From contig NZ_JALLPK010000001.1 of assembly GCF_023276375.1 (NCBI RefSeq), positions 1,240,001 through 1,304,000 on the forward strand: 64,000 nt of DNA, given 5' to 3'. The position numbers were made by a program, and so were the translations under genes. The DNA comes from Halocatena marina (GTDB lineage Archaea; Halobacteriota; Halobacteria; Halobacteriales; Haloarculaceae). Within the stretch, counting starts at the first letter, position 1. Every line of letters begins with the position of its first letter. The notes under the pieces are model-generated. The model saw nothing but the letters and a program-made list of their open reading frames with translations, was not told the origin of the DNA and did no database searches. Below, piece after piece: positions 2,706 through 19,666 of the stretch.

Positions 2706-2719
2706 CCTCCCATGGGAGG
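2706..2719. promoter_or_regulatory. Palindromic operator, copy 1 (ecfT promoter)
   Basis: Perfect 14-bp palindrome CCTCCCATGGGAGG, 35 bp upstream of ecfT. An AT-rich TATA-like element (complement of catatattg, about 2741-2749) lies about 30 bp further out, so the palindrome would cover the transcription start, the usual place for an archaeal repressor. Three near-identical copies occur at 2863, 3691 and 6683, each in front of a gene of the same putative pathway. The binding protein is not identified. Confidence 0.75.
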
Positions 2720-2862
2720 AGGTCGTTCCTCTCTTAGTGCCCATATATTGATTGCATGCGAAATTATCGATGAAAATCCAATACAGAGGAATGAAGGCCG
2801 TCTATTGATGTTACTCGTGATGATCTTGTATTTATATCTATATTTATGTGAATAAACAATCT

Positions 2863-2876
2863 CCTTCCATGGGAGG
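2863..2876. promoter_or_regulatory. Palindromic operator, copy 2 (S-component promoter)
   Basis: CCTTCCATGGGAGG, matching the copy at 2706 at 13 of 14 positions. It lies 59 bp upstream of the chosen ATG of the putative S component and just downstream of a strong TATA-like run (tttatatctatatttatg, 2831-2848). The position again fits a repressor site over the start of transcription. Confidence 0.72.
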
Positions 2877-2935
2877 TGGAGGTATTAACTATGATTGGCA
2901 AGTGGTACCTACTGCCATGAAACGTGGTGTTGATT

Positions 2936-3601
2936 ATGGGTTCGGCTAAAAACGTGAAAGGTGTGGACAAGGATTCAGGAAGTGAACGGCCAACAACGGA
3001 TGGGCGCGAGGTCTGGAAAGTTCACGAAGGTGAACACCGGGAGTCTGGTCCGGTTCATGTAATAATGACCGCTCTCTTCATTGGTATCGGTATCGTCGTC
3101 GGTACCTTTGGGAGCTTAGCCGTTCCAATCGGGTTTGTGTCGGCATTCTGGCCGGGGCAGGCAGTGCAGGCCGTCGGCGCGGTTTGGTTCGGTGCGTGGG
3201 GAATCATCGCTGGTGTTGTATTCCCGATCATATCGAACACAATCAGTGGCTCTGCTCCGCTCCCGGTGTCGCTCGCGTACATCCCCGGGAACATGGTTCA
3301 GGCAGGACTTGCTGCGTGGGCAATGAAACATTTCCATGCGCACCCATCGCTCAAAACCAGGCGAGACTGGATCATCTTCATCGCTTTCGGAGTCATCGCA
3401 GCGAATTTCGTCGGGTCGCTCTGGGGCTCTGCCATCCTATTGACGTTCGGTCTCATCACAGCCGAAGCTTGGCCGATCGTGTGGGTTGGCTGGTGGATTG
3501 GTAACACCATCCCCGGTGTCATCTTCGGTGGTATCCTACTGAAGTTCGTCTCCCCAGTCATCATCGACAGCAAAGCCTTCGTGAAAAACTGGTGGGCCTG
3601 A
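2936..3601 (+). CDS. Putative ECF substrate-binding (S) component, membrane protein
   Basis: Integral membrane protein of 221 aa. The first 40 residues are polar and charged. They are followed by about five or six hydrophobic segments, for example the helix starting VIMTALFIGIGIVVGTFGSL and a Gly/Trp-rich C-terminal helix IVWVGWWIGNTIPGVIFGG. Size and topology fit ECF S components, and the gene is divergent from ecfT and the ATPases with the same palindromic operator in front, which is the main reason for the call. The ligand is unknown; neighbours suggest a ureide, hydantoin or modified amino acid. A GTG at 2924 is an alternative start; the ATG at 2936 gives the more usual MGSAKN beginning. 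Confidence 0.7.
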   Translation: MGSAKNVKGVDKDSGSERPTTDGREVWKVHEGEHRESGPVHVIMTALFIGIGIVVGTFGSLAVPIGFVSAFWPGQAVQAVGAVWFGAWGIIAGVVFPIISNTISGSAPLPVSLAYIPGNMVQAGLAAWAMKHFHAHPSLKTRRDWIIFIAFGVIAANFVGSLWGSAILLTFGLITAEAWPIVWVGWWIGNTIPGVIFGGILLKFVSPVIIDSKAFVKNWWA

Positions 3602-3690
3602 GATAACTGGATCACACACTCCTCTCAGCCGACCCCGTTTTCGTGCATACTATTGATTGAGTGGTAGCGTCCGACCGTGTTCACTAGCTA

Positions 3691-3704
3691 CCTCCCATGG
3701 AAGG
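3691..3704. promoter_or_regulatory. Palindromic operator, copy 3 (PLP-enzyme promoter)
   Basis: CCTCCCATGGAAGG, third copy of the regional palindrome, 43 bp upstream of the preferred start of the threonine-synthase-like gene. Flanks are also partly symmetrical (ctagc before, gctag after, offset by one base). The ATG inside it is unlikely to be a start codon, because that would add residues with no family resemblance. Confidence 0.72.
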
Positions 3705-3747
3705 TGCTAGGTTATTGGGCGACGGAAGTGCATTCTTCTGCATGGTA

Positions 3748-4983
3748 ATGGAACATGTCACTTCCCTCGAGTGCACCCTTTGCGGTGAGACGTATGCTCC
3801 CGACCAAATCATCTATACCTGTCCGAACCACGAGGGCGTTGCAGGCATCCTTGAAGTACAGTACGACTACGATCTCATTAACGACCGATTCGACGAACCA
3901 CTCGATGGTGTTATCGAGAGCCAATGGAAATACCGTGCCTTCCTCCCGATCAATGACGACGCGCCTGCCGTCACATTAAACGAGGGCGGCACTGATCTGT
4001 TCGTCACGCCGAATCTGAGCGATGAGTTGGGGGTCGATATCCGGATAAAAGACGATGGGCGAAATCCCACCGGTGTATTGAAAGATCGTGCAACGAGTGT
4101 CTCAGTTACTAAGGCTGCCTACCTTGGTCAAGACGTCATAACGTGTGCCTCGACAGGCAACGCAGCCGCATCTCTGGCTGGCTATGCAGCTCGTGCAGGA
4201 CTGCCGTGTCGAATCTTCGTTCCTGACGCAGCCCCCGAGGAAAAGCTTGCACAGCCACTTGTGTACGGTGCAGACGTCCTCGCTGTGGATGGAAGCTACG
4301 ACGAGGCATACGATCTAAGCATGGACGTCACAGAGGCGTTCGGCTGGTATAACCGAAATGCGGCGGTCAATCCGTTCCAGGTCGAAGGAAAACGAACCGT
4401 CGGGCTCGAACTCGCAGAGCAAACGAAAGGCGACGTTCCAGATTGGCTCGTTTTCTCGATGGGTGATGGATGTACAATCTACGGTGGCTGGAAGGGATTT
4501 CGTGAGTTCTACGATCTTGGCTTTGTCGACGAGACACCGAAGATGCTCGGTGTCCAAGCAACAGGAGCAAGCGCAATCCACGACACGTTCCACTCTCACG
4601 ACGACATCGACGACGTTGCAAAAACAGTCGCAGACAGTATCTCTGTCGGCCGACCACGGAACACAGTCAAAGCCTGTAAAGCGCTCGAAGAAAGCGACGG
4701 GACATCACTCCTCGTCACTGACGAAGAAATTCTCGCCGCAGAGAAAACGCTGGGAACTACAGAGGGAATCTACGCCGAACCCGCAGGGGCGACTCCGATC
4801 GCAGGTGTCCGAAAGGCACTCGATCAGGGTATCATCGAACCGGACGAAACGGTGCTCGCTGTCGTCACGGGCTACGGATTAAAAGATACGAAAAGTGCAA
4901 TGAAAGCGAGTGGTGAACCTCAGTACATCGGCCCCGATCTCGAAGCTGTCGACACACTGTACGGCGATACCGGCTCGTCGTAG
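3748..4983 (+). CDS. Threonine-synthase-like PLP-dependent enzyme
   Basis: Fold-type II PLP enzyme of the threonine synthase family, 411 aa. An N-terminal zinc-finger-like segment has Cys9, Cys12, Cys25 and His28. The PLP lysine is Lys112 in NPTGVLKDRA, an Asn-containing phosphate/cofactor loop STGNAAASLAGYAA follows, and a late GYGLKD motif is present. Threonine synthases make threonine from O-phosphohomoserine, but relatives deaminate or eliminate from other amino acids. Its place among hydantoinase, carbamoylase and D-aminoacylase genes behind the same operator suggests a catabolic lyase acting on the released amino acid. Upstream in-frame ATGs at 3697 and 3742 exist; the family begins at the zinc finger, so 3748 is preferred. 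Confidence 0.82.
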   Translation: MEHVTSLECTLCGETYAPDQIIYTCPNHEGVAGILEVQYDYDLINDRFDEPLDGVIESQWKYRAFLPINDDAPAVTLNEGGTDLFVTPNLSDELGVDIRIKDDGRNPTGVLKDRATSVSVTKAAYLGQDVITCASTGNAAASLAGYAARAGLPCRIFVPDAAPEEKLAQPLVYGADVLAVDGSYDEAYDLSMDVTEAFGWYNRNAAVNPFQVEGKRTVGLELAEQTKGDVPDWLVFSMGDGCTIYGGWKGFREFYDLGFVDETPKMLGVQATGASAIHDTFHSHDDIDDVAKTVADSISVGRPRNTVKACKALEESDGTSLLVTDEEILAAEKTLGTTEGIYAEPAGATPIAGVRKALDQGIIEPDETVLAVVTGYGLKDTKSAMKASGEPQYIGPDLEAVDTLYGDTGSS

Positions 4984-5022
4984 CAAACAAGGGTGTACTC
5001 CTCGACTCGTTTCACACACAAT

Positions 5023-6645
5023 TTACACACCGTCTTGTTCGATCCGTGGACGAGACTGACCATTCCACGCCTCAGTCGATCGGAGCACTTCTCCGGCACT
5101 CTTGCCCGTTGGTTGTCCCGCTTCAACAGCAATCGTTCCATTGACGAGGACATAGTTCATCCCATCGGCTAACTGCAATGGGTTCTGATACGTGCCGTTC
5201 TCCCGTACCGTATCGAGATCGAACGCTACGAGATCAGCACAGTACCCTTCCGCAATGCGGCCTCGATCTGAGAGTCCGAGGATTGCCGCCGCGTGGCCAG
5301 ATGCCTTATACACTGCCGTCTCGATCGGGAACACGGCGCGATCTTCGACGTACCGTTCGAGAATTCGAGCGAACGTGCCGATCGCGCGGGGATGTGGCTT
5401 CCCGCCGAAGATCCCGTCCGAGCAGATCGTTCCACGTGTGTCAGCGAGGAATCGCTCGATATCCTCTTCTGTCATGATGAAATCTGCCATCGTCACATCG
5501 AGGGATTCTTCGACGAGCAAGTCACACATCGCAGCAATCGGATCGACGTCCCGTCGTGTTGCAATCGCATCGACTGTTTCCCCGATGGCTGTGCCACTCG
5601 CCGTGTGAGTGATGAGAATGTTCTCCCAGGTTCCTGCTGCTCGGGCGAGGTTCTCCCATTCGCCATCAGATTCGATATCTGCTCGGATTTTCGAACGCAT
5701 CTCGGGATCGTTCAGCCGGGCGTGAATCTCGGATGCATTCCCCTCACGTGCCCACGGTGGTAACAATGCGGTGAGCATTGTCGAACCGGCAGTGTACGGA
5801 TACTGATCGAACGTGACCGTTACACCGCGCTCATTGGCAGCATCGAACAGTTCGAGGATCTCTTTCGACGCCCCCCAGTTGGCTCGTCCACCGACTTTCA
5901 GATGAGAGACGTGTGGCTGACACCCGCCGTTTTCACAGATATCCAGATAGCGCTCGATTGATTCGACGACGTAGTCCGTTTCGTTCCAAACGTGTGAAAC
6001 CATGAACGAGTTGCGTGTTCCAAGCGTTTGTGCCAGTTCGATGAATTCATCGTCACGACCGTAGGAACTGGGTGGGTAGATCATCCCTTTCGACATGGCG
6101 AATGCGCCCTCGTCGATGGCAGTCAGTAGTTCTTCACACACCGTGTCTATTTCCGAACGATCGAGTTCGCGCGTTTCGAAATCGGCGACTGTCGAACGAA
6201 GGTTCCCATGGGGTGCATAGTAAGCACAATTAACTGCTGGTGTTGCAGCATCTAGTTCGTCGAGAAACGATCCAACAGATGTCCACGACCAGTCGTCTTT
6301 CGTTCCCAAAAGCGTCTGTACGCGTTTTCCCCACTCTTCTTTGAGCGCTTCGGGAACAGGGGCGACACTAACGCCGTCTTGCCCGAGAACTTCGAGAGTT
6401 ACGCCTTGGGTGAGTTTCTCTGGTGCAGTTGGATAATCAAACAGGCGGAGCTCCGAGTGAGCGTGCATATCGATGAATCCAGGCGTGAGATACGCCCCAT
6501 CGAGGTCGATAACCCGGTCTGCTCCAACTCCTGTTTCATCAATACGATCGATAGTACCGTCCTCAATACGCACGGTCGCAGCATAGGGTGGACGACCTGT
6601 CCCATCAACAACTGTTGCATTCTGAAATTCAAGAGACCCGACCAT
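5023..6645 (-). CDS. N-acyl-D-amino-acid deacylase family amidohydrolase
   Basis: Amidohydrolase-superfamily enzyme of 540 aa, similar to D-aminoacylases, which cleave N-acyl groups from D-amino acids. Seen: the metal motif GFIDMHAHSE (His61, His63), the CQPHVSHLKVGG histidine region, and a late SDGIFGGKPHPRAIG segment carrying the catalytic-type Asp. Where classical D-aminoacylases have a cysteine metal ligand in a GNCG motif, this protein has GQDG. It may use a different ligand or belong to a subfamily acting on other N-substituted substrates. Divergent from the M20 gene, sharing one palindromic operator at 6683. An upstream in-frame ATG at 6690 falls inside the operator; I chose 6645. Confidence 0.87.
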   Translation of the reverse strand: MVGSLEFQNATVVDGTGRPPYAATVRIEDGTIDRIDETGVGADRVIDLDGAYLTPGFIDMHAHSELRLFDYPTAPEKLTQGVTLEVLGQDGVSVAPVPEALKEEWGKRVQTLLGTKDDWSWTSVGSFLDELDAATPAVNCAYYAPHGNLRSTVADFETRELDRSEIDTVCEELLTAIDEGAFAMSKGMIYPPSSYGRDDEFIELAQTLGTRNSFMVSHVWNETDYVVESIERYLDICENGGCQPHVSHLKVGGRANWGASKEILELFDAANERGVTVTFDQYPYTAGSTMLTALLPPWAREGNASEIHARLNDPEMRSKIRADIESDGEWENLARAAGTWENILITHTASGTAIGETVDAIATRRDVDPIAAMCDLLVEESLDVTMADFIMTEEDIERFLADTRGTICSDGIFGGKPHPRAIGTFARILERYVEDRAVFPIETAVYKASGHAAAILGLSDRGRIAEGYCADLVAFDLDTVRENGTYQNPLQLADGMNYVLVNGTIAVEAGQPTGKSAGEVLRSTEAWNGQSRPRIEQDGV

Positions 6646-6682
6646 GTGTGTGGTTGGTTTACACGCTACAAAAGTGGCACCA

Positions 6683-6696
6683 CCTACCATGGAAGG
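6683..6696. promoter_or_regulatory. Palindromic operator, copy 4 (divergent D-aminoacylase / M20 promoter)
   Basis: CCTACCATGGAAGG, fourth copy of the regional palindrome, in the 90-bp gap between two divergent genes: 37 bp from the D-aminoacylase start and 39 bp from the M20 start. One bound dimer could control both directions. Aligning the four copies gives CCTNCCATGGNAGG. Confidence 0.74.
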
Positions 6697-6735: not shown

Positions 6736-7989
6736 ATGGACGTTGTTGTAAGTAGTGAGCGATTTCAGAGTCGTTTCGAGGTATTCAGCCAGATTGGGGA
6801 AACTGATCGCAGTGGGGTGAATCGTCCTTCTCTCTCGGACGCGAATAAATTAGCACGACAACAGATCGTTGAATGGTTTGAGGATGCTGGATTGACCGTC
6901 ACCATCGATGAGATGGGGAATATTTTCGGACGCAGAGACGGGAGCACAACGGACGCTTCACCAGTACTCTTTGGCTCTCATATTGATAGTCAGTACAACG
7001 GTGGGCGCTATGACGGCGTCGTCGGTGTTCTTGGCGCGCTCGAAGTAATCGAATCGCTCAACGACGCCGGTGTAGAGACGGATCGGCCACTCGAAATCGT
7101 TGCGTGGAGCAACGAGGAGGGTGTTCGATTTCAACCGGACATGCTTGGCAGTGGGGTCTTCACCGGCGTTTTTGATCTCGAATACGCCTATTCCCGTGAG
7201 GACAGTGATGGAAACACATTCGGAGACGAGTTAGAGCGAATCGGCTACCGAGGAGAGCATCCCTGTGAACCACGTGATATTCACTGTTACTTTGAGCTTC
7301 ACGTCGAGCAAGGGCCGTATTTGGATGAACAGGATTTGAGTGTCGGTGTCGTCGAAGGAGTCTACGGCTTTTCTTGGCTTGACGCCCGCTTCGGTGGAAA
7401 AGCAGACCACGCTGGACCGACACCAATGCATCTCCGACACGATGCACTCGTCGCAACGAGCGATATCATCACCGCAGTCCGACGGCTTACCGCGAGCGGA
7501 GGGTCTGATTTAGTCGGAACCGTCGGATCGGTCGATGTCTACCCGAACTCCATCAATGTCATTCCGGAACAGGTCGAGTTCACCGTTGATCTGCGATCAT
7601 ACGACAACGAAACAGTCGATCAGGCTGTCGAACGCATTCGGACCGAGATTCGGTGTGCCGCAGAGCGCGAAGATGTCAGTTGGTCTTGTGAAGAGATCAT
7701 GCGCGTCGATGCTGATCCATTCGATGCGGATTGTGTCAAGACGGTTGAGCGAGCAGCTAAAGCCGTCGATGCAGAGTATATGCGTATGGTCAGTGGTGCG
7801 GGACACGATGCAAACTATCTCAACACCGTCTGTCCGACGAGTATGATATTCATACCAAGTGTCGATGGCGTTAGCCACACCGAGGGTGAGTACACCGAAT
7901 GGGAGGACGTAGTGGTCGGTGCGAACGTTCTCATGGGTGCAGTGACCGAACAAGCGACGATAACGGAAACGACCGAACTACACCAATGA
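6736..7989 (+). CDS. M20-family N-carbamoyl-amino-acid hydrolase / amidase
   Basis: Cytoplasmic Zn-dependent amidohydrolase of the hydantoinase/carbamoylase branch of peptidase family M20, 417 aa. Metal and catalytic residues are in place: His82 in GSHIDSQ, Asp93 in RYDGVVGV, the Glu pair in SNEEGVRF (127-128), His189 in ELHVEQGP and His381 in SHTEGEY; the dimer-interface motif GKADHAGPTPM is also present. Members hydrolyse N-carbamoyl amino acids, allantoate or beta-ureido acids. Its stop overlaps the start of a hydantoinase gene by 4 bp, so ring opening and decarbamoylation are probably made from one mRNA under the operator at 6683. The exact substrate is inferred. Confidence 0.92.
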   Translation: MDVVVSSERFQSRFEVFSQIGETDRSGVNRPSLSDANKLARQQIVEWFEDAGLTVTIDEMGNIFGRRDGSTTDASPVLFGSHIDSQYNGGRYDGVVGVLGALEVIESLNDAGVETDRPLEIVAWSNEEGVRFQPDMLGSGVFTGVFDLEYAYSREDSDGNTFGDELERIGYRGEHPCEPRDIHCYFELHVEQGPYLDEQDLSVGVVEGVYGFSWLDARFGGKADHAGPTPMHLRHDALVATSDIITAVRRLTASGGSDLVGTVGSVDVYPNSINVIPEQVEFTVDLRSYDNETVDQAVERIRTEIRCAAEREDVSWSCEEIMRVDADPFDADCVKTVERAAKAVDAEYMRMVSGAGHDANYLNTVCPTSMIFIPSVDGVSHTEGEYTEWEDVVVGANVLMGAVTEQATITETTELHQ

Positions 7990-9362
7990 CTGTCGATACC
8001 ATCCTCTCTGGTGGAACTGTCGTGACGGACACTCGAACCTTCGATGCTGACGTTGCGATACGCGATGGAACGATTGCCGCAATTGGATCCTCTGAGTCGC
8101 TCCCCCCAGCGAGGACGGTTGTCGATGTCTCTGGATGTCTCGTAATGCCGGGATTCGTCGATCCCCACGTCCATATCGACGATTCAGCGTCGATCGATAC
8201 GTACGAAACGGCGACCGCCGCTGCCGCCAGCGGTGGTATCACGACGGTCATTGATTTTGCATGGCAGACTGAAGATAATTCGTTGGAGAACTCCCCACGA
8301 CCGCTGACCGCTGGAATCGAGCGCAAGCAGGAGAAAGCTGAGAACGCCTACGTCGATTACAGTCTCCACGGAGGGATCACCATCGAAACAGAGGACGTTC
8401 TGGAGGAACTCGCGACAGCGGTCGAAATGGGTGTCACGTCGTTCAAAATGTTCACCGCGTACGATTTCAGAATCTCTAACGGTTTCATATACAAAATATT
8501 GGAGGAAATAGCCAACCTCGACGCTGTCGGTGTCTTCCACACGGAGGACAACTCAGTATGTGAAACATTAATTGAAGCGTTCAAAACAACGGGTCGGAAC
8601 GAATCAACGTGGTATCCACAGTCACGGCCGGATTTCGCTGAAGCAATGGCTGTCGAGAATGTTCTCAGGATGGCATTTGAAACCGGTGCGAAGTACTACG
8701 GCGTCCACACTTCCTGTCGAAAATCCGCCGCCGTTATCGATCGATTCCGAAACGACGGGAGTCAGGTGCGGGCAGAGACGTGTACGCACTACACGACGCT
8801 CGATGACGCTGTGTACGAAACACAGGGAAACCTCCCGCTCATTGCACCACCAATCCGGAAACCGGATGACATTGAAGCGATGTTCGAGTATCTTCGGACT
8901 GGGACACTCGATGTTGTTTCGACGGATCATGCACCGCATTCGAGCGAAAGCAAGCAGGTTGACTGGTGGGACAGTCCGTACGGAGCAGGAAGCCTTCAAG
9001 AGAGTGTTCCCGTTTTTCACGACGAAGCAGTGAACAAGCGCGGCTTTGGGTATCCCTTCCTCGTACGAGTGATGAGTACTGCCCCAGCGAAGATATTTGG
9101 TCTGACCGGGAAAGGAACGCTTGCTCCGGGAACGGATGCAGACATTGTCGTCTTTGATCCGGACAAGACGATGCGCATTTCGGGCGATGAGGGTGCATCG
9201 AAGGCAGATTTCAGCATCTATGACGGTCGTGAAGTGACTGGAGCAGTGCAACAGACGTACGTTCGGGGGACGTGCATCGTCGAGGACGGCGAGTTGGTTG
9301 GTGATCCCGGTACCGGAGCGTTCGTTGCACGCGCGCTTCCCGATTGGGAATCGATACGCTAA
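7986..9362 (+). CDS. Hydantoinase / dihydropyrimidinase
   Basis: Cyclic amide hydrolase of 458 aa that opens hydantoin or dihydropyrimidine rings to N-carbamoyl acids. The binuclear metal centre can be traced: His61 and His63 in DPHVHID, the lysine expected to be carboxylated, Lys153 in TSFKMF, His184 in VFHTED, His240 in GVHTS and Asp313 in STDHAPH. The ATG at 7986 overlaps the M20 stop (ATGA); a longer in-frame start at 7899 lies inside the M20 gene and has no family support. With the M20 enzyme it forms the standard hydantoin-to-amino-acid pair. Stereospecificity cannot be read from the sequence. Confidence 0.92.
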   Translation: MTVDTILSGGTVVTDTRTFDADVAIRDGTIAAIGSSESLPPARTVVDVSGCLVMPGFVDPHVHIDDSASIDTYETATAAAASGGITTVIDFAWQTEDNSLENSPRPLTAGIERKQEKAENAYVDYSLHGGITIETEDVLEELATAVEMGVTSFKMFTAYDFRISNGFIYKILEEIANLDAVGVFHTEDNSVCETLIEAFKTTGRNESTWYPQSRPDFAEAMAVENVLRMAFETGAKYYGVHTSCRKSAAVIDRFRNDGSQVRAETCTHYTTLDDAVYETQGNLPLIAPPIRKPDDIEAMFEYLRTGTLDVVSTDHAPHSSESKQVDWWDSPYGAGSLQESVPVFHDEAVNKRGFGYPFLVRVMSTAPAKIFGLTGKGTLAPGTDADIVVFDPDKTMRISGDEGASKADFSIYDGREVTGAVQQTYVRGTCIVEDGELVGDPGTGAFVARALPDWESIR

Positions 9363-9479: not shown

Positions 9480-10235
9480 ATGATCATTGATGCACACGCC
9501 CATCTCGACGAAGTGGAATCATTCGGTTGGAAAGACACGCCATCCACGCTCCTTCGGTTGATGGACGCGGCTGGTATCGATACGGCCGTCGTCACTACGT
9601 ACGCCGATACGCCGGGTCCAGAGGACGGCGTCGAACGACTACGGGAGTACGTCGACGACCATCGGGATCGATTCATCGGCTTTCCACGGATGGACCCACG
9701 GTACGGTGATGAGGCAATTGAGATTTTCGAACAGGCAATCACCGAGTACGGCATGAAGGGTTTGAAGCTCCATCCAGTCAGCAATCTCTCAAATCCCTAT
9801 TCGGAGTTCAACGTCGAACTGTTGGAGACAGCTGCTCGACTCGATGTCCCCGTGCTGTTTCACTCGGGTGATCGAATACTGTGTCTCCCTCGCCAGATTG
9901 GTGAAGCAGCGCGCAAAACGGAGGCAACGCTCATCATGGGACACGTTGGTGGGTTCTTCAACGCCCGCGAAGCGGTTGCCGTGGCAGCTGAGCATGAGAA
10001 TATTATCCTTGAGACCTCTGCGCTCCCATATCCACGGATCATTCAGGAGGCAGTCGATCAGTTGGGTGCCGACCGAGTGATCTACGGCAGTGACCAGCCA
10101 GCGGCCAATCCGCACGTCGAACTCGAAAAAATTCGTGTCCTCGATCTGACAGACGAACAACGCGAACTGATCCTCGCTCGGAACATTGCCAATCTCCTTG
10201 ATTTAGACATCGAGAACGGAGGAGAGTCCTCATGA
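9480..10235 (+). CDS. Amidohydrolase-2 family metal-dependent hydrolase
   Basis: TIM-barrel amidohydrolase of 251 aa in the branch containing decarboxylases and lactonases (amidohydro_2). Complete metal site: His6 and His8 in DAHAH at the N-terminus, His128 in LFHSGD, His155 in MGHVGG and Asp205 in YGSDQP. Likely a hydrolase or decarboxylase of a small carboxylic or lactone substrate; no specific reaction can be assigned. Overlaps the next gene by 4 bp, and the two proteins are paralogues of nearly equal size, so they may form a hetero-oligomer. Confidence 0.88.
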   Translation: MIIDAHAHLDEVESFGWKDTPSTLLRLMDAAGIDTAVVTTYADTPGPEDGVERLREYVDDHRDRFIGFPRMDPRYGDEAIEIFEQAITEYGMKGLKLHPVSNLSNPYSEFNVELLETAARLDVPVLFHSGDRILCLPRQIGEAARKTEATLIMGHVGGFFNAREAVAVAAEHENIILETSALPYPRIIQEAVDQLGADRVIYGSDQPAANPHVELEKIRVLDLTDEQRELILARNIANLLDLDIENGGESS

Positions 10236-11002
10236 TCATTGATGCGAACGCAAATGTCGGGCCATCGGTGTACGACGACTTCGAGTTTTCACCGACAGTC
10301 GAACGCCTCACGGAGAATCTTGCAGCCGCAGCTATCGATGGAGCAGTCGTTGCACCGCTTAAACCACCGTCGTTCGACTTTGATCGAGCGAACGCTCGCT
10401 TAGCCGCGCGATTACAAGAGAGAGCGACATGCTATGGGATCGGTCGTGTCGATCCACGAGTTGACGACAGTGTTGAACACGCAGAGCGGGCGCTGTCGGA
10501 GTACAACCTTTATGGCTTCAAACTCCATCCATGGGAAGAAACCGTCTCGATTACCTCACCAAACGTCCCCCCTCTTCTTGAAATCGCAGCCAGCTACACT
10601 GCACCAGTATGGATCCATGCAGGCTATCCCGGCGTTTCACACGCGCTGTCGGTTCGGGAGATCGCACAACAGTTTCCGGATGTTCCGATGATACTCACTC
10701 ACGGCGCACAGCTTGACATCAGTGGACTGAGCTTGACAGACGCATTCGAACTCGCAGAAACGACGACGAACACGTATTTCGAACTCTCGGGCGTGTATCG
10801 GCGAGATTTCATCGAGGATCTCGTTGAGACGGTCGGTCCTGAACGGGTGCTCTTTGGGACAAACGCACCGTACTTCCATCCTACAGTCGAAAAATCACGA
10901 GTAATCAACGCTGAGATCTCTGATACTACTAAACAGAAGATCTTGGGCGAAAATATACTGAATTTGTTAGAAATACCAGACAATGGTCATTCATTTGAGT
11001 GA
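10232..11002 (+). CDS. Amidohydrolase-2 family paralogue with degraded metal site
   Basis: Paralogue of the preceding gene, 256 aa, translationally coupled to it (ATGA). The barrel pattern is retained (MIIDA start, FKLHP near residue 97, LFGTNAP near the end), but the metal ligands are altered. The N-terminal HxH is NAN (Asn6, Asn8) and the Asp of the YGSDQP position is Asn211. The two inner histidines (His129 in WIHAGY, His157 in LTHGAQ) remain. It may be a structural or regulatory partner of the active paralogue, or have an unusual mechanism. Reading frame is intact, so it is not a simple pseudogene. Confidence 0.85.
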   Translation: MIIDANANVGPSVYDDFEFSPTVERLTENLAAAAIDGAVVAPLKPPSFDFDRANARLAARLQERATCYGIGRVDPRVDDSVEHAERALSEYNLYGFKLHPWEETVSITSPNVPPLLEIAASYTAPVWIHAGYPGVSHALSVREIAQQFPDVPMILTHGAQLDISGLSLTDAFELAETTTNTYFELSGVYRRDFIEDLVETVGPERVLFGTNAPYFHPTVEKSRVINAEISDTTKQKILGENILNLLEIPDNGHSFE

Positions 11003-18697: not shown

Positions 18698-19012
18698 ATA
18701 TATGGTGCATAACAACATCCACTGAGATAAAGGTACCTGGTTACAAACGTATATTATAGAATTTAATATAATAATAGCAGTTAGGAATAGATAGAACAGC
18801 CTACTAATTATTCGCGGCTGCATCTACACTTGGGTGTCGGTCATTCGCTCGATCTCTACTGTGCTGTTCGTTCTGGGCTTGCTTCGACATGGGTCCGACG
18901 AAGTCAAACTAAAGAGCGTTTCCGTGAGGTACATATAATAGTTGCTGATGATTGGAATACGGAGTGATAAACGATTTTTCGTGTCAAGTTCCACACGGTT
19001 CCCACCGGTGTG

Positions 19013-19666
19013 ATGGAAAAACTCGATACCCAGCTCGATGACGTTCGTAGCATCGAACTCGATAATGCCTTCTATGTCGAAGATGGCACGTGGATCGAGT
19101 CGCTCACGGTATCGTCGGCGACTGATTTCGATCCACACGAACCCCTTTCGGAGATTTGGGGTGTGGAACTGTTCTACACGCACGAAATACCAACTGGTCC
19201 ATCTGGCGTCGCGATCCGCCGCCTGACGATTATCGCCAAGGAATCATATCCCTTTATTCTCAGCGTTGTCCTTCGTCAGGAAGCGATTCCAAATCGAATC
19301 GCACTGCAGGGAAACGAGTTTGAAGTTGTCGCCACCGTTCGAAATTGGGAACAGTTTCGTTCACTTGCCGACGAACTCGAGGAGACGTTGGGCGCATTTG
19401 AGTTACAAAGTGTGAATCAAATTGAAACTCCGGGAGAGCCACTCGGTAGTGGACGAATAACCGAAGTTCTCACCACGAAGCTCACTCACGAGCAACTCGC
19501 AGCGCTCGAAACCGCGTACGATATGGGCTATTTCGACGTGCCGCGAACGGCGTCGACAGTCGACATCGCGGAGGAGCTGAATGTTTCCCAATCGACGGTG
19601 AGCGAACGGTTGCGAGTTGCCGAACGGAACCTTTTCGCACTGATCTACGGTCCCCGCGAGAAATAG
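19013..19666 (+). CDS. Bacterio-opsin-activator-type HTH transcriptional regulator
   Basis: 217 aa. The N-terminal 150 residues form a mixed alpha/beta sensor-like region of the type seen in haloarchaeal Bat homologues. The C-terminus, from about residue 158, is the HTH_10 domain: LTHEQLAALETAYDMGYFDV, then DIAEELNVSQSTVSERLRVA. The start could be the GTG at 19010. It lies 118 bp upstream of the importer operon that begins at 19785, on the same strand, and is a reasonable candidate for its regulator, though nothing shows this directly. Confidence 0.85.
   Translation: MEKLDTQLDDVRSIELDNAFYVEDGTWIESLTVSSATDFDPHEPLSEIWGVELFYTHEIPTGPSGVAIRRLTIIAKESYPFILSVVLRQEAIPNRIALQGNEFEVVATVRNWEQFRSLADELEETLGAFELQSVNQIETPGEPLGSGRITEVLTTKLTHEQLAALETAYDMGYFDVPRTASTVDIAEELNVSQSTVSERLRVAERNLFALIYGPREK

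Follow-up and report, generated by a model that had tools for sequence, protein, structure and literature searches.

The 14-bp palindrome CCTNCCATGGNAGG occurs four times within a single 4-kb stretch of the window, a 64,000-nucleotide piece of the Halocatena marina genome (G000; C1:1240001-1304000), in front of a cluster of putative transport and catabolic genes. We propose that it is very probably the operator of an adjoining regulator of the HTH_10 (Bat-type) family of helix-turn-helix (HTH) proteins, encoded at G000:C1:1238509-1239237, which would activate one local catabolic regulon. What was observed in silico is the site itself, where it lies, that it is conserved and that it occurs together with the regulator. 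The HTH_10 class of regulators is already known; what is new here is the operator and a named candidate regulator. HTH_10-type genes are numerous in haloarchaea, but to our knowledge few have a known operator; sequence comparison now offers a candidate pairing of one such regulator with defined targets and with an operator of 14 bp that keeps a fixed place in the promoter.

The genome of H. marina comprises 5,317,764 bases in 7 contigs, in which about 0.375 exact copies of CCTNCCATGGNAGG would be expected from the base composition of the window. There are four, at 2706-2719, 2863-2876, 3691-3704 and 6683-6696 (sites 1 to 4; 14 bp each), just where an earlier note on this DNA had placed four palindromes of that length. 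As that note had also claimed, they front five transcription units, site 4 lying between two divergent genes; the distances to its chosen starts, put there at 35-59 bp, measure 35, 59, 37, 37 and 39 bp, and if these starts are used all sites lie in the gaps between genes. Of the 30 matches in the window at up to three mismatches, four are exact and two have two mismatches (10525, 43335), with no one-mismatch copy among them, and the whole genome holds nine places at one mismatch or fewer, the four exact sites and five one-mismatch sites outside the cluster (L005-L009). In the whole-genome search with two mismatches that the earlier note had called for, the motif is not over-represented: 98 places were found at up to two mismatches against 236 for the same pattern read backward, and at up to one mismatch the nine places compare with 16 for that control. 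Both comparisons weigh against an enrichment of the motif, and because the motif is not enriched once mismatches are allowed, the case for it rests on exactness and clustering. A genome-wide regulon was rejected after inspection of the five one-mismatch sites elsewhere, the exact sites being confined to the cluster. One of the five (L008:1501, G000:C4:331965), on another contig, precedes an SSS symporter gene by about 30 bp; we do not claim it as a target, as a TATA-like box is absent at the usual distance.

An ATG stands inside the palindrome, and mechanically called open reading frames (ORFs), some of them long, begin at the ATG within CCATGG at 3697 (plus strand), 6690 (minus) and 2713 (minus), so that the palindrome might be a start-codon context, a repeat element or an RNA hairpin and not a protein site at all. 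We consider this hardly credible, given that the genome holds only four exact copies, that they lie upstream of a TATA-like box, that one copy serves two divergent genes, and that the N-terminal extension which such a start would add to the pyridoxal phosphate (PLP) enzyme of site 3 is not kept in Salinadaptatus in a comparison by eye; on this last ground CCATGG as a start-codon context was rejected.

The candidate regulator

The earlier note was correct that no regulator gene lies inside the block, but one is found about 0.76-1.5 kb to the left of window position 1. This HTH_10 gene (plus strand, window about -1491 to -763; L105:12510-13238) has its start 1.5 kb outside the window, on the far side of ecfA' and a racemase-like gene with which it is convergent. 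In a second Halocatena species (G295), orthologues of the PLP-enzyme, D-aminoacylase and M20 genes of the cluster carry three sites (two exact, one with a single mismatch); one G295 site fronts an SSS symporter gene and is adjoined by an HTH_10 gene, and no matches to ecfT or the S component occur in that locus. The best match of the G295 HTH_10 protein in H. marina is C1:1238536-1239234 (53% identity), 767-1465 bp left of the window. Of the 342 genomes of the order searched, 184 have a member of the regulator's subfamily, as do 54 of 89 genera.

The protein belongs to the HTH_10 family by its match to PF04967 at residues 182-233 (69.4 bits against a gathering score of 23.1; E 2.3e-19), and no PAS or GAF sensor domain of the kind found in Bat and no further Pfam domain was found in it at E <= 0.001. 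A C-terminal HTH_10 domain is shared with the published regulators Bat, NarO and DmsR (PMC11218638, PMC10062603), and a putative activator function would be. According to the available text of PMC11218638, PAS and GAF domains are missing from NarO and DmsR as well, and for this reason their lack is no argument against HTH_10 membership, although it does speak against orthology with Bat. Unlike these three, the regulator would target catabolic rather than anaerobic or light-related genes, and its operator would be CCTNCCATGGNAGG. A relative from Salinadaptatus (51% identical), modelled from 45 sequences with a predicted local distance difference test score (pLDDT) of 87, shows two units (10-79, 99-170) that are beta-alpha-beta-beta-alpha-beta judging from how their elements follow one another, and then the HTH (186-235). 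These two ferredoxin-like N-terminal domains, whose counterparts in NarO and DmsR were not compared, could suit the sensing of a small molecule. A fold search with the regulator model gave Ta1207 of Thermoplasma (5m86) as its best match, a weak one with a template modelling (TM) score of 0.43 on the query.

Two features of the H. marina genome bear on whether this gene is the reader of the site. The regulator's own gene carries no site at up to two mismatches, which counts against our reading and led us to reject autoregulation in H. marina. There are, besides, a good many genes of HTH_10 type in the genome (53 matches at E <= 0.001), any other of which, or another regulator altogether, might bind the site from an unlinked position with the adjoining gene as a bystander. 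We judge this very unlikely, as the linkage recurs in several lineages, even at targets as unlike these as an aldehyde dehydrogenase in Haloferax, and as the window's own HTH_10 gene (19010-19666), rejected as a reader of the site, lies outside the subfamily. That gene sits upstream of an ORF that by eye resembles a peptide-type binding protein.

Co-occurrence of site and regulator

Promoters of the PLP-enzyme, D-aminoacylase and M20 clusters were compared between loci with and without the regulator, with starts taken from alignments. The seven regulator-linked clusters are those of the window, G295, Salinadaptatus halalkaliphilus, Haladaptatus litoreus, Halorubrum aquaticum, Halorubrum sp. 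48-1-W and Halorubrum cibi, and the 18 clusters without it are those of G227 and G296 (same genus), G351 and 15 Haloarcula genomes (genus g3); absence of the regulator from these 18 loci, three of which span at most 12 kb, was judged by tblastn, and Haloarcula has subfamily members elsewhere in the genome. Promoters were left out where the protein match fell below 55% identity or began past residue 25 (the Haladaptatus litoreus D-aminoacylase and the cut PLP matches of three Haloarcula loci), as were G283, which is of the same species, and two further Haladaptatus loci with the regulator (L323, L332), where fragmentary M20 matches left no testable promoter. A second PLP copy of G295 (L051), in a locus without D-aminoacylase, M20, site or regulator, was not counted.

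All 20 promoters of the linked clusters carry the site, with no mismatch in eight, one in two, two in nine and three in one, at 30-43 bp before the aligned start with one exception at 60 bp; since divergent genes share sites, the 20 promoters represent 14 distinct ones. The 39 promoters of the unlinked clusters have best matches of 4-6 mismatches at scattered positions. The site thus accompanies the linked regulator in 7/7 clusters against 0/18 without it (Fisher 2.1e-6), which lends strong support to the earlier note's claim that a shared regulator is very likely and points to the HTH_10 gene as the candidate. That note had named a lack of conservation upstream of orthologues as grounds for refutation, and in the clusters compared the site is kept where the regulator is linked. 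Its absence where the regulator is unlinked fits a regulator-site pair. The Salinadaptatus genome has just two exact sites, both in this cluster. Kinship among the genomes inflates these counts, a point on the other side of the balance, and collapsed to lineages the comparison stands at 5/5 against 0/3 (p = 0.018).

A blind search of 392 genomes of the order for the motif gave exact matches in 37. Outside G000, G283 and G295 there are 36 such places, and among the 27 loci examined a subfamily regulator lies within 1.5 kb of the site in 14 (tblastn below 1e-25). The control palindrome GGANGGTACCNTCC, of the same composition and matched in 103 of the 392 genomes, had a subfamily regulator in none of 30 loci. 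The difference has a Fisher value of 2.6e-6 uncollapsed, and collapsed to lineages it becomes 5/18 against 0/30 (p = 0.005), nine of the 14 regulator-adjoining sites being from one lineage (Haloferax, genus g56) and about five lineages being represented overall. The genes beside these sites are local catabolic or transport genes: an aldehyde dehydrogenase in Haloferax (by a domain scan of L222 only), and elsewhere a proline racemase with an SNF-family transporter and an Asp/Glu racemase with an MFS transporter. A further exact site, in G403, was met by another route outside the 27 and lies 57 bp before a regulator. Two results tell against the pairing: 13 of the 27 exact sites have no subfamily regulator within 1.5 kb, and G179 encodes a close relative of the regulator (49% identity) whose locus is without a site, the two one-mismatch sites of G179 being on a different contig.

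Promoter geometry and mode of action

The site takes a regular place in the promoters. Positions 7-11 bp after the palindrome are rich in A and T, with a fraction of 0.80-0.95 over 20 gene-directed sites, compared with 0.15-0.85 (mostly 0.25-0.7) at other positions, and the gap from site to start is 31-40 bp in 16 of 19 rows; four of these 19 starts are a few bases off, and the gaps from alignment-derived starts given above are the better measure. The A/T count in six bases on the better side of the site is 4-6 for 19 regulator-linked sites, 2-5 where the motif has no regulator beside it (13 sites) and 1-4 for 30 control sites. The usual geometry is thus about 7 bp from the site to a TATA-like box and about 37 bp to the start codon. 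In the window, site 1 (the perfect palindrome CCTCCCATGGGAGG) has the TATA-like TTTATCAA 7 bp away and the ecfT ATG at +35, and would drive ecfT-ecfA-ecfA'-racemase on the minus strand. Site 2 (CCTTCCATGGGAGG), with TATTAACT 6 bp away, an ATG at +59 and an in-frame GTG (2924) at +47, would drive the S-component gene. Site 3 (CCTCCCATGGAAGG), with an ATG at +37, is kept upstream of PLP orthologues that adjoin the regulator and would drive the PLP-enzyme gene, and site 4 (CCTACCATGGAAGG) is common to the divergent D-aminoacylase (+37) and M20 (+39) starts. At the D-aminoacylase and PLP promoters the TATA-like box is weak, which speaks against our reading.

In Haloferax volcanii most transcripts (72%) are leaderless, and TTWT and CGAAA have been proposed as the haloarchaeal TATA box and transcription factor B recognition element (BRE), respectively (available text of PMC4983044). 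From leaderless transcripts and these signatures it follows that the site should abut the BRE on its upstream side, a position that fits activation by a regulator of the HTH_10 family. We infer binding by the regulator, probably as a dimer, activation rather than repression, a ligand and a pathway as follows. The ferredoxin-like N-terminal domains could sense a small molecule, and a regulator dimer would bind CCTNCCATGGNAGG directly upstream of BRE and TATA box and recruit TFB and TBP, each site driving one promoter and site 4 two divergent ones. The induced local regulon would comprise an energy-coupling factor (ECF) uptake system, a racemase, a hydantoinase, an M20 carbamoylase, a D-aminoacylase and the PLP enzyme, and its role would be the catabolism of hydantoins or N-carbamoyl/N-acyl amino acids.

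The identical regulator and site could instead serve repression, relieved by an inducer, which we hold to be rather improbable though the likeliest of the alternatives. Of 15 Haloarcula loci, 11 (L126, L127, L129, L131-L133, L135, L137-L140) have a related palindrome, CCTTCATACGGAGG, close before the regulator gene, 23-26 bp before the aligned start and ending about 13 bp before it, a position that would suit autorepression. The sites of the cluster, however, are upstream of BRE and TATA box, neither on nor downstream of them, and the published occupants of that position are the activator GvpE (PMC4390858) and CsmR, for which a positive role was inferred (PMC13286277), as far as the available parts of these sources go.

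The proposed activation through the palindrome has parallels in known systems, with differences in each. The upstream activating sequence (UAS) of GvpE likewise sits directly beside the BRE between divergent promoters, and a close UAS-BRE distance is essential; unlike the HTH_10 regulator, GvpE resembles a leucine-zipper protein, and its UAS is a 20-nt element of two 8-nt parts and a 4-nt spacer, the divergent UAS overlapping rather than forming one shared palindrome (available text of PMC4390858). CsmR of Haloferax volcanii is associated with the semi-palindrome TATCA(N4)TGATA upstream of BRE and TATA box and inferred to act positively; it differs in its motif and in its regulon of motility and cell shape, and the words HTH and bacterio-opsin are absent from the available part of its text (PMC13286277). 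The denitrification motif CGAAYATDKTYG of Haloferax mediterranei is also a semi-palindrome of similar length found at several promoters, and one of the denitrification clusters includes a bacterio-opsin-activator gene (PMC10062603, PMC11218638). It is unlike CCTNCCATGGNAGG in sequence and in its distance of 66-79 nt (319 in nar) from the start codon, and in the available text of these sources its regulator is said to be undisclosed. In open-licence literature on haloarchaeal HTH_10, Bat-like, hydantoin and palindromic regulons, no title or beginning of an abstract reports the motif, the motif letters themselves not having been searched.

The wider subfamily and the genes of the cluster

Palindromes were sought within 600 bp of 119 subfamily regulators, a sample in which 14 were included because they adjoin a motif. 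CCTNCCATGGNAGG was found at 16 of them (15 with a KTT-type and one with a KAT-type recognition helix) and CCTGCTATAGCAGG at four, all of the TTST type, a fifth TTST-type gene (L111) being without it. A TATG/CATA centre occurs at three regulators (two KAT, one KTT), another palindrome centre at 15, all KTT, and CGACCATGGTCG at three (two with the helix GKTTFLHHLR, one KTT). The only clean pairing is that of TTST with CTATAG (4/5 within 600 bp), all inside one genus. In a masked scan of up to 150 bp around 105 regulators (48 clusters), the half-site ranked second of 256 (6 clusters, mean 0.55), which gives modest unbiased support to a signal linking site and regulator. Perhaps, then, the whole subfamily reads CCTNC-N4-GNAGG just upstream of BRE and TATA box, with the recognition helix and its context determining the centre, TTST going with CTATAG and KTT mostly with CCATGG, a suggestion that we regard as doubtful. 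Several results weigh against it and also against our main reading: 78 of the 119 regulators lack every palindrome form tried, the half-site is no longer among the top 12 once the range is 800 bp or more, and a 5-mer palindrome scan over 1.5 kb did not place the motif in its top 40, where words of coding sequence dominated. KTT-type helices, moreover, go with CATG (15), other centres (15), TATG (1), CGACCATGGTCG (1) or none (32), and because they go with several centres or none we have lowered our estimate of a subfamily-wide code, which had stood somewhat higher and still short of even. If such a code were true, many orphan haloarchaeal regulators could be assigned operators and targets from sequence alone. 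The reading of DNA by the subfamily can be tested directly, because operator, geometry and targets are now paired and some relatives with another helix adjoin another palindrome; the Haloferax aldehyde dehydrogenase promoter, with the same site adjoining such a regulator, is one example.

Perfect copies of CCTGCTATAGCAGG were seen at L106:7893, L108:13124, L111:9581, L115:7487 and L118:8009, in four of these loci 112-128 bp before the TTST-type HTH_10 gene and in L111 about 1.3 kb from an HTH_10 gene. TTCGACCATGGTCGAA lies about 90 bp behind the HTH_10 genes with the GKTTFLHHLR helix (L108:7112, L109:7828).

From its protein families, the cluster looks like a gene set that takes up and degrades hydantoins or N-carbamoyl/N-acyl amino acids as its presumed substrates. 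On the minus strand are the ECF transporter ATPase genes ecfA' (1-840; PF00005), whose stop codon is just left of the window, and ecfA (837-1697; PF00005, scanned as ORF 837-1787), followed by a gene for an EcfT/CbiQ-like transmembrane component (1711-2670; PF02361, E 5.5e-19); both ATPases match ECF_ATPase models best, yet under their cut-offs. After ecfA', outside the window, comes the Asp/Glu/hydantoin-racemase-like gene, also on the minus strand (PF01177, E 2.2e-49). The putative S component, a membrane protein encoded on the plus strand (2936-3601), fits that role by gene position only and may represent a new S family: domain scans gave no S-family match, the sole Pfam match being MASE1, its single-sequence model is poor (pLDDT 50), and among 293 genomes of the order it turned up in two, each belonging to this species.

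The enzymes that follow are a threonine-synthase-like PLP enzyme (3742-4983, plus strand; PF00291, TIGR00260 at 225 bits against a cut-off of 167.1), a D-aminoacylase-like amidohydrolase (5023-6645, minus strand; PF07969, PRK09061 below cut-off) and, on the plus strand, an M20 amidase of the hydantoinase/carbamoylase family (6736-7989; TIGR01879 at 427 bits against a cut-off of 204) and a hydantoinase/dihydropyrimidinase-like enzyme (7986-9362; TIGR02033 at 340.5 bits, below the cut-off of 393.25). Of a hyu set, then, the carbamoylase and racemase families are present and the hydantoinase falls under its model's cut-off. The M20 and hydantoinase-like genes overlap and probably form one operon, of which two Amidohydro_2 genes (9480-11002, plus strand; PF04909) are possibly the tail.

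The selenium-dependent molybdenum hydroxylase (SDMH) region of Haloarcula marismortui has yqeB, yqeC, selD and ssnA (available text of PMC2276186). Genes of that type were absent from the ten cluster proteins of the window that were scanned, the rest of the genome not having been searched for them. The PLP, D-aminoacylase and M20 locus of G227 (L052:9-18586) resembles this region, its three genes standing among xanthine-dehydrogenase-like, YqeB, YqeC, SelD and SsnA-like genes; unlike the window, the SDMH-like loci of G227 and Haloarcula have neither a linked subfamily regulator nor the palindrome. In the Haloarcula loci L057 and L061 the neighbours are alike by eye, with the addition of an ABC transporter, whose ATPase was scanned.

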